In this document: piece after piece, positions 4,692 through 34,672 of the stretch
How the letters are laid out: the number at the start of each line of letters is the position of its first letter
Numbering within the stretch: position 1 is the stretch's first letter
Assembly (NCBI GenBank): GCA_903837075.1
Contig: CAILTI010000024.1
Span: 1-35,450 of the forward strand
Origin: an uncultured bacterium
Lineage (GTDB): Bacteria; Patescibacteriota; Minisyncoccia; Phycocordibacterales; PALSA-1337
Direction: 5' to 3'
Length of the DNA stretch: 35,450 bases
Notes under the pieces: model-generated
The model's database searches: none
What the model saw: the letters and a program-made list of their open reading frames with translations, nothing else
Told to the model about the DNA's origin: nothing
Position numbers and translations under genes: made by a program

Positions 4692-4852
4692 GGGCAACCT
4701 CCCACAGCTCTTTTCGTCTCTGCGGCTTTGTTTCCAATATACCAGCATTTTCACAAAGGACTCGCTCCAAGGATTCACTCATCCTTTGGAAAATGCGCTG
4801 GTATATCAGTCACAAAATATCCTCGAGACTCAAGAGCTGTGGGAGGTTGCCC
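4692..4852. repeat. Copy 1 of hairpin repeat: perfect 21-bp terminal inverted repeat, with nested inner inverted repeat (4737-4806)
   Basis: GGGCAACCTCCCACAGCTCTT (4692-4712) / AAGAGCTGTGGGAGGTTGCCC (4832-4852); 26-bp core GTCACAAAATATCCTCGAGACTCAAG at 4809-4834 is identical to 34631-34656. Confidence 0.9.
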
Positions 4853-22265: not shown

Positions 22266-22316
22266 ATGTTCTCAAAATATTATTTGCTTATCTTTTCTCT
22301 TCATGCCTCTTCTATT

Positions 22317-22379
22317 CACTAATCACTAATCACTAATCACTAATCACTAATCACTAATCCCTCGTCCCTAGTCCCTTAT
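22317..22379 (+). repeat. Heptamer tandem array: 6 x CACTAAT plus 3 degenerate units
   Basis: (CACTAAT)6 at 22317-22358 then CCCTCGT CCCTAGT CCCTTAT. Confidence 0.95.
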
Positions 22380-22443
22380 TCTGTACTCCCCCTCCACCAC
22401 TTCGAACTTCAGTTTCTCGTGATCTGGCAGTACTTTGTCCAAA
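22378..22443 (-). pseudogene. Remnant/duplicate of tsaE 3' end
   Basis: Minus frame ...LDKVLPDHEKLKFEVVEGEYRIRD*, about 62/66 nt identical to 23761-23826 inside tsaE. Confidence 0.85.
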
Positions 22444-22458
22444 TCCATTTTGGAGTTA

Positions 22459-23744: not shown

Positions 23745-24227
23745 CTACTCAATTGTCGTCATTCTATACTCCCCCTCCACCACTTCGAACTTCATCTTCA
23801 CGTGATCTGGCAGTACTTTGTCCAATTCTACATTCTCTGGCCACTCGATCATGATGAGGTTACTGGCATCAGCGACCAATTGGTCGAAATTTAGCACCTC
23901 CAACTCCTCTCTGCGTTCCAATCTATACGCATCGATGTGGACGAGACGTTTCCAGGGGCAAGCAGAATTGGAAATGGAGAATTGAGAATCTTGATCTAAC
24001 TCATATATCTTCATAATGACGAAAGTTGGGCTAGTCACTTCCTCCTTCACACCGAGTAGCTTGGCGACGATCTTCACAAAAGCGGTCTTCCCCGCCCCGA
24101 GATGGCCAGACATACCGACGACTATGGCGCCACTACTCTCCCCAAAAGGGCGAGCCGCTAACGATTGTAACCACCCAGTGGCGAGCTCTCGCGTTTCTTC
24201 CAACGAATGAGATCTGAAAATTTTCAT
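23745..24227 (-). CDS. tsaE: tRNA threonylcarbamoyladenosine biosynthesis protein TsaE
   Basis: MSGHLGAGKTAFVKIVAKLLGVKEEVTSPTFVIMKIYEL...LVHIDAYRLERREELEVLNFDQL...IMIEWPENV. Confidence 0.93.
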   Translation of the reverse strand: MKIFRSHSLEETRELATGWLQSLAARPFGESSGAIVVGMSGHLGAGKTAFVKIVAKLLGVKEEVTSPTFVIMKIYELDQDSQFSISNSACPWKRLVHIDAYRLERREELEVLNFDQLVADASNLIMIEWPENVELDKVLPDHVKMKFEVVEGEYRMTTIE

Positions 24228-25935: not shown

Positions 25936-26103
25936 AGATACGGGGTATCGTTTGAGAAAACTGCGATATTTTGTCAGAAGTTTTTTTGTAAATCGAAAAT
26001 CATATCCCCGATCTCGTCAAACTGTGGATAACTAGTTTGCTTTTATAACACTCGAAAGAGTAGTATGACTTTAGTAGCAGAACAAAAGGGATTTCAAACG
26101 CAT

Positions 26104-26248
26104 GAATCTCTAAGCAAAATCTCGTCGCGTGATGCGATAAGCGAGGTATAGTCCCGAGGATGATTACAGTATACTAGCGACAAGCGCTAGCGACCAGAAC
26201 GTCCTTAGAACCATACCCAAACCTGGGAAGGCCATTGCTTAGAGATTC
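26104..26248. ncRNA. Candidate structured ncRNA, family unknown, strand unresolved
   Basis: Perfect 14-bp closing stem GAATCTCTAAGCAA/TTGCTTAGAGATTC enclosing nested hairpins (ATCTCG..CGAGGT with TCGC/GCGA; CTAGCG-ACAAG-CGCTAG; AGGATG/CGTCCT) in an intergenic gap of about 500 bp with no credible ORF. Confidence 0.6.
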
Positions 26249-26268
26249 CTGTGTTCGAATACGATCAG

Positions 26269-26350
26269 ATTTGAGAAATAAGATTTAAGATTTAAGAAGA
26301 AACACAAATAGTCTATGTCCATTCTTAAATCCAAAATCTAATTCACAAAT
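26269..26350. repeat. Imperfect AT-rich inverted repeat
   Basis: ATTTGAGAAATAAGATTTAAGATTTAAGAA ... TTCTTAAATCCAAAATCTAATTCACAAAT. Confidence 0.7.
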
Positions 26351-26439
26351 CCGACCCAGAATCTCCAATAAACCCATGATTATTTCAATTCTCTCGACAC
26401 ATTATTAGCGCCCTACTATACTAGCATGTACACAATCAA

Positions 26440-34608: not shown

Positions 34609-34672
34609 GTAACCTCCCACACCTCTTTTTGTCACAAAATATCCTCGAGACTCAAGGGGTGTGGGAGGTTAC
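34609..34672. repeat. Copy 2 of hairpin repeat, upstream of rpmH
   Basis: GTAACCTCCCACACCTCTT / AAGGGGTGTGGGAGGTTAC with the 26-bp core at 34631-34656. Confidence 0.9.

Follow-up and report, generated by a model that had tools for sequence, protein, structure and literature searches.

The hairpin at positions 4692–4852 of the window, by which we mean the whole stretch of 35,450 nucleotides that was analysed, belongs to a family of intergenic elements that is confined to one genus among the 179 genera sampled. We consider it reasonably probable that the members of this family are genus-specific, dispersing, non-autonomous hairpins, which combine arms rewritten by template switching with a conserved single-stranded tip and would be spread by a putative mobilising protein. 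The evidence comes from the copies in the window, from filled and empty sites in related genomes, and from the different behavior of the arms and the tip of the hairpins.

Copies in the window and their distribution in the genus

An inverted-repeat search of the window identified copy 1, a hairpin of 161 bp at 4692–4852 that is flanked by rpsT (S20) and ruvA. Based on the inverted repeat, the alignment, the folds, and the empty sites in relatives, it was assigned to the minus strand as a full-length element of the family designated R1. Its outer arms, at 4692–4712 (GGGCAACCTCCCACAGCTCTT) and 4832–4852, form a perfect inverted repeat of 21 bp (100% complementary, with 119 nt between them), the sequence of which is unlike that of the arms of other copies. 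The conserved tip, or core, occupies 4713–4831 on the minus strand and shows 88–96% identity among the intact copies compared in G000, the genome of the window. The functional single strand of copy 1 is probably the minus strand (GAGGATATT... first). Copy 2, which is also assigned to the minus strand and lies between dnaA and rpmH (the latter identified by reading the sequence), is a hairpin at 34609–34672 with an inverted repeat of 19 bp as its left arm (34609–34627, GTAACCTCCCACACCTCTT) and right arm (34654–34672). Both copies are placed between divergent genes. Only two exact instances of a 26-bp core, GTCACAAAATATCCTCGAGACTCAAG, are present in the window, at 4809–4834 and 34631–34656, and the expectation from 100 shuffles was 0, even when 3 mismatches were allowed. 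Relative to copy 2, copy 1 contains 93 additional bases at 4719–4811, with GTC at both junctions (4716–4718 and 4809–4811), and this stretch is an imperfect palindrome by itself. Re-examination therefore bore out the structural part of the original prediction, namely a hairpin with perfect 21-bp arms, a 26-bp core shared with copy 2 (exact match at 34631, none in shuffles), and about 93 extra bp of palindromic DNA with GTC at both junctions.

In the G000 assembly (730 kb in 60 contigs, about 77% complete), we counted about 11 copies, several of which are cut by contig ends. The size and the genes of this genome suggest a host of the candidate-phyla type. About 30 intact full-length copies were found over G000, G006, G011, G017, and G004, plus one in G009. 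A covariance model recognized clear family members in G000, G006, G011, and G017, divergent members in G004, and a single one in G009, and found no copies in the remaining 28 species of the genus, so that the copy number between species ranges from 0 to more than 10. Of 397 genomes that represent 179 genera of the order, 3 contained the apex pattern of the tip, and all three belong to this genus. Viral contigs of IMG/VR gave 0 matches to the element. The elements are located in intergenic spacers, and the length of R1 is about 160–195 bp. The relatives examined are represented by assemblies, in part from metagenomes, and their gene contexts are based on simple ORF calls.

The rpsT-ruvA spacer holds the element in G000 only: all of the about 20 readable relatives, among them G011 (RuvA 86%) and G006 (79%), have neither the hairpin nor its arms there. 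Because the spacer is empty in all readable relatives, copy 1 was gained as one unit, arms included. Only three sites are common to G000 and a relative (C24b/G017_C40, C29b/G011_C3, and C6/G011_C17). The dnaA-rpmH spacer contains different hairpins in G000, G006, G002, G017, G021, and G004; in most of the remaining genomes, it is short and empty. No target-site duplication was seen at pairs of filled and empty sites, the flanks of which align poorly near the borders. The possibility of an assembly artefact was considered as well, and is argued against by sites shared in several independent assemblies. The further copies, the filled and empty sites, and the lineage-specific spread all support the proposal, made from the window alone, of a small non-autonomous element. 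In the mechanism that we propose, the first step is the gain of a whole hairpin at a new intergenic site, which the empty sites show.

No transposase or any other gene for mobilisation could be tied to the family. It is unlikely, in our estimation, that the family is a REP/REPIN-like element moved by the RAYT (TnpA-REP) type transposase of several of these genomes. Although a RAYT-like protein is encoded on contig C12 of G000 (PF01797, 37 bits; NCBIfam REP_Tyr_transpos, E = 5.5e-7, below its cut-off), PF01797 matches occur in 21 of the 34 genomes of the genus, and a hairpin with conserved mismatches and a bulge is the type of feature read by TnpA-REP (PMC8266576), several observations run counter to this explanation. 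The elements carry no GTAG/CGTC tag, their length is 4–8 times that of REPs, their least conserved part is the outer ends, and no family member was found on the G000 contig that bears the RAYT-like gene. In addition, while a Y1-type gene was found in G000, G006, G011, G021, and G015, no PF01797 match, and thus no Y1 gene, was detected in G017 (99% complete), G002, or G009. Since G017 nevertheless has at least 7 full-length copies, we regard the RAYT-like gene as a lead only. In its own context (L138, corresponding to G000 C12, 3483–3992), it is a single RAYT-like Y1 transposase gene within a type IV pilus/pseudopilin-like cluster. An integron explanation was rejected: no match to the integron integrase TIGR02249 exceeded the cut-off in 8 genomes, the low scores being like those in all control genomes.

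Variable arms and a conserved tip

Hairpins of the same design are not limited to R1. A de novo search of G021 for giant hairpins (arm of at least 22, loop of more than 15) detected 57 across about 0.8 Mb of sequence, including 72 kb that was masked, and a shuffled control of its first 400 kb contained none. They include several families other than R1, in which the tips are common to the family and the arms are individual to the copy (family A tip, ...TACTCATTTT.../AGAGACATGTACATTACACCG...; family B tip, .../TCCGTAACGTTC...CCCGCTGGGAAT). Their orientation to the direction of replication is mixed, as judged by eye. A search for arms of at least 18 gave 2.7–3.8 hairpins per 100 kb in G015, G018, and the window, and none in sampled portions of four genomes from other genera of the same family or order or in 50 kb of E. 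coli.

Other repeats and hairpins were observed in the course of this survey. The window contains tandem CTAATCA repeats at 22312–22367 and a 68-bp direct repeat (22378–22445 and 23761–23828, 93% identical, 1.4 kb apart). A long imperfect hairpin at 26093–26259 (ATCTCTAAGCAA...TTGCTTAGAGATTCC, fold z-score −5.3) is conserved in G018 (L244:12610–12772), and its GTCCCGAGGATNATT motif is also found in G006 (L125:6044); no Rfam family passes for this hairpin, which resembles a divergent 6S RNA and, like the tips of the family described here, contains CCCGAGGAT. An AT-rich imperfect hairpin at 26265–26354 (AAGATTTAAGATTTAAG...CTTAAATCCAAAATCT) is similar to a hairpin that G011 has between dnaA and rpmH and possibly represents another hairpin family. 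Repeated CGATTCTGCTGAATCG hairpins are present around 1480–1620 of L053 in G043, which belongs to a different family within the order, and modules like these occur in elements of G000, G011, G005, and G024.

When copies within one genome are compared, their arms are 45–71% identical on average (35% when shuffled), and the two arms within each copy are 96–99% Watson–Crick paired. We counted 513 matched and 20 mismatched arm positions in the R1 family and 671/9, 325/6, and 610/17 in three other hairpin groups, which gives 2119 matched positions in 64 hairpins and a mismatch frequency of 1.3–3.8% per family. Wobble pairs account for less than 1% of the arms overall, with a weak bias over A-C pairs (18 vs 8, p = 0.08). 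Selection on RNA stems is expected to leave many more wobble pairs. The arms of copies 1 and 2 are about 91% identical and differ by one G-C to C-G flip that is present in both arms, a change to which no route through a wobble intermediate leads. AAC was found within the first 8 positions of 30 of the 64 arms (giant hairpins of G021 and G015 and R1 copies; shuffle mean 11, maximum 21), and the hairpin ends may thus carry a weak common signal, AAC...GTT.

The fate of individual hairpins was followed by comparing G021 with part of G015 (at most about two-thirds of it). To this part, 25 of the 57 G021 hairpins could be mapped, about ten of which are empty in G015, and half-hairpins, in which a single arm and in some cases a portion of the tip are left, are present at L216, L224, L205, and probably L213. 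Three sites are filled in both genomes. At C2:64861/L211, the same outer arms (GCGAAGCRGGAG..TGTGTACTCATTT) carry matched substitutions and enclose a tip of family A in one genome and of family B in the other. The hairpins at C3:20840/L205 have orthologous arms (GCAACCCACACC..GTGCAC..TCATTTTC) and different tips, and the arms of the two genomes differ by an insertion of CC and the loss of 2 bases, each of which is found in both arms. At C2:340366/L220, the tip family is unchanged and the middle is replaced in both arms. Such matched indels are very unlikely to arise by independent mutation, and they fit the templating of one arm by the other. Template switching homogenises the arms of inverted repeats, inverts spacers, and creates and maintains perfect stems (PMC8604942, PMC8794818), and its expected signature is what the present arms display: paired changes, including indels, with very few wobble pairs. 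We infer that the arms drift in sequence and that replication template switching (quasipalindrome correction) would copy a change in one arm onto its partner, which would keep the stems near-perfect and fits the matched indels. The tips, in turn, would be exchanged or homogenised between sites, and the pattern of exchange is seen at two sites. A different origin of the arms, copying from the target flanks on insertion, was rejected, as neither arm is found in the empty site at most filled/empty sites; at G015 L205, L216, and L224, where one arm is accompanied by part of a tip or a decayed arm, the loss of one arm fits better.

The tip differs from the arms in that it is conserved. The common fold of intact copies comprises the outer arms, a 2 × 3 internal loop (CC[GA]GG / CC[GCA]GG), and an inner stem that is interrupted by another internal loop. 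The apex, TTTTCCAAAG...CTTTGTGAAAA, contains a single bulged T. According to the alignment and folds, the 5′ side of the internal loop of copy 1 (GAGGA, minus strand) is at 4820–4824 and pairs, in the form CC[GA]GG / CC[GCA]GG, with its 3′ side (CCGCAG, minus strand) at 4720–4725. The bulge, a conserved single T within CTTTG-T-GAAAA (minus strand), is at 4753 and is replaced by A in a few G006/G017 copies. The inner imperfect palindrome (ATATACCAGC...GCTGGTATAT), which is the extra palindrome of the original prediction and contains the conserved apex, extends over 4737–4806 on the minus strand (alignment, folds, and pattern search). The mean identity of the tips was 91% among the four intact G000 copies compared. 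The tips of the orthologous pair G000_C6/G011_C17 are only 76% identical, whereas each is 94–98% identical to the nearest copies in its own genome, which means that tips have either been replaced or become homogenised within the species.

RNAalifold predicted 51 pairs over the arms and tip, with changes on both sides in 33 of them. Among the tip pairs, 23 were G-U and 2 were A-C (p = 2e-5; one near-constant pair was excluded, and the counts, which ignore kinship, are small and share ancestry). This bias suggests that one strand of the tip matters, in single-stranded form, and the fact that the internal loops of the tip escape "correction" argues for selection on it. As far as can be judged from sequence, the tip is most likely kept as a single-stranded form on one strand and is a putative recognition structure of the spreading protein. 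In the second step of the proposed mechanism, it would accordingly act single-stranded on one strand, as the wobble bias, the bulge, and the loops suggest. DNA is preferred to RNA as the presumed acting form because the elements show no preferred orientation with respect to genes and because a family-wide promoter was not noticed, the latter on reading by eye for a common promoter outside the variable arms.

These properties of the tip, namely strong covariation, the one-strand wobble bias, and the conserved loops and bulge, could also be those of a structured RNA family, every copy of which is transcribed and the arms of which co-vary through selection on an RNA stem. We consider this quite unlikely. 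The arms, with wobble below 1%, are far too perfect for RNA selection and contain matched insertions and deletions and the G-C to C-G flip; the orientation relative to flanking tandem genes is the same in 12 cases and opposite in 7; the copy number varies from 0 to more than 10 across species; and deleted copies and half-hairpins persist. There is no Rfam match either: at the gathering score only tRNA was found in the whole window, and at a relaxed E-value the element hit chance miRNA models only. The structured leader that had been suggested as an alternative likewise finds no support, given the absence of an orientation preference and of an Rfam family.

It is very unlikely that the hairpins are ordinary transcription terminators or insulators with stems selected for termination. 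Many copies do lie closely behind a stop codon; however, they have no U tract, no T run follows the arms (by reading), ordinary short-loop terminator-like hairpins are present separately, and both copies in the window are between divergent genes. Divergent spacers are also over-represented among the giant hairpin sites of G021, which are 18 tandem, 12 divergent, and 2 convergent against a background of 190/64/55.

Long and short forms of the element

The full-length form with the "93-bp extra" is found in all intact copies of G000 and its relatives, and in 4 species the standard element includes these 93 bp. The long form is the common state and probably the ancestral one, so that the direction implied by the word insertion is wrong. 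Copy 2 retains one strand only of the inner helix and lacks exactly 93 bp between two GAC/GTC triplets, and the orthologous dnaA-rpmH site of G017 carries the full-length form. From the remaining half of the helix and the G017 site, copy 2 is read as an internal deletion derivative formed at a 3-bp microhomology. A similar internal deletion, between TTTGTGA repeats, is present at G000 C26:8814, and one half is gone at G000 C4:9383. Elements decay through internal deletion, as in copy 2, or through loss of one arm, as the copies show.

That a 93-bp element instead entered a smaller hairpin, with copy 2 as the pre-insertion state and a 3-bp target duplication visible as GTC at both junctions, is highly improbable, given that only one half of the long form's internal helix is present in copy 2, that its orthologous site in G017 has the long form, that the GTC duplication is missing from other copies, that the comparable deletion at G000 C26:8814 used a different microhomology (the TTTGTGA repeat), and that the pattern which this reading predicts, short forms at several sites and long forms always nested at one fixed position, was not found. 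The nesting originally envisaged for copies 1 and 2 is therefore unsupported; the underlying intuition of modules within hairpins nevertheless holds in part, as tips were exchanged between families at other sites.

Relation to known elements and significance

A literature search on palindromes or inverted repeats in candidate phyla gave no relevant results, and we compared the family with systems known elsewhere. Like REP/REPIN/BIME sequences and their RAYTs, the elements are dispersed intergenic non-autonomous hairpins that form species-specific families, have conserved stem mismatches, and co-occur with a RAYT-like gene in some genomes. The conserved 2 × 3 internal loop, the bulged T, and the one-strand wobble bias may point to single-strand recognition of the REP type. 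REPs are 20–40 bp, have a GTAG or CGTC tag, and are mostly located between tandem or convergent genes (PMC3733652). In contrast, the present elements are 95–200 bp, with outer arms that have no constant tag, variable outer ends, and a conserved tip, and a RAYT does not accompany them in every carrier genome (no PF01797 in G017, G002, and G009). MITEs have conserved ends (TIRs) and duplicate their target. The elements are small, non-autonomous, dispersed, and foldable, as are bacterial MITE-type repeats (PMC2229807), but their ends vary among copies (outer arms with a mean identity of 45–71%) and no target duplication was seen at the poorly aligned flanks. Thus, they are REP- or MITE-like in dispersal and non-autonomy, yet lack the tag, the constant ends, and the required RAYT that would place them in these classes.

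The sites of integrons offer another comparison. The attC sites are folded single-strand sites with poor sequence conservation and good structure conservation, extrahelical bases, and AAC...GTT near their ends. The present elements resemble them in being folded sites, putatively of single-strand type, with a structure that is better conserved than the sequence, extrahelical bases, and AAC...GTT near the ends; however, they have no R-box consensus, the full RYYYAAC / GTTRRRY box was not seen by eye at the listed arm ends, and there are neither cassette arrays nor an integron integrase over the cut-off. The repetitive hairpin elements of sponge mitochondria and related double-hairpin elements are also dispersing intergenic hairpins that comprise multiple independent families, but they have conserved stems and varying loops, the opposite of the conserved tips and varying stems described here (PMC2800124). 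As in the present elements, quasipalindrome correction and template-switch mutations homogenise arms and generate and preserve perfect stems (PMC8604942, PMC8794818). Whereas this process is known on individual inverted repeats, it apparently operates here across dozens of members of dispersed families.

We tentatively extend our interpretation further, although we give this extension somewhat less than an even chance: the elements would form a class of selfish hairpins with two layers, in which arms inherited with the site are rewritten by template switching and tips are copied across families and take over old stems, the tip being the substrate of a putative ssDNA (or RNA) mobilising activity in these ultra-small bacteria. 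Compensatory changes in a stem are commonly regarded as proof of a selected RNA, whereas here the arms change in step, including matched indels, with wobble nearly absent. The near-identical tips on dozens of stems that have changed in step constitute a natural series for how far template switching alone makes and keeps perfect hairpins, and they are a warning for covariation-based RNA discovery. The family also points to a putative mobile-element activity in tiny genomes.
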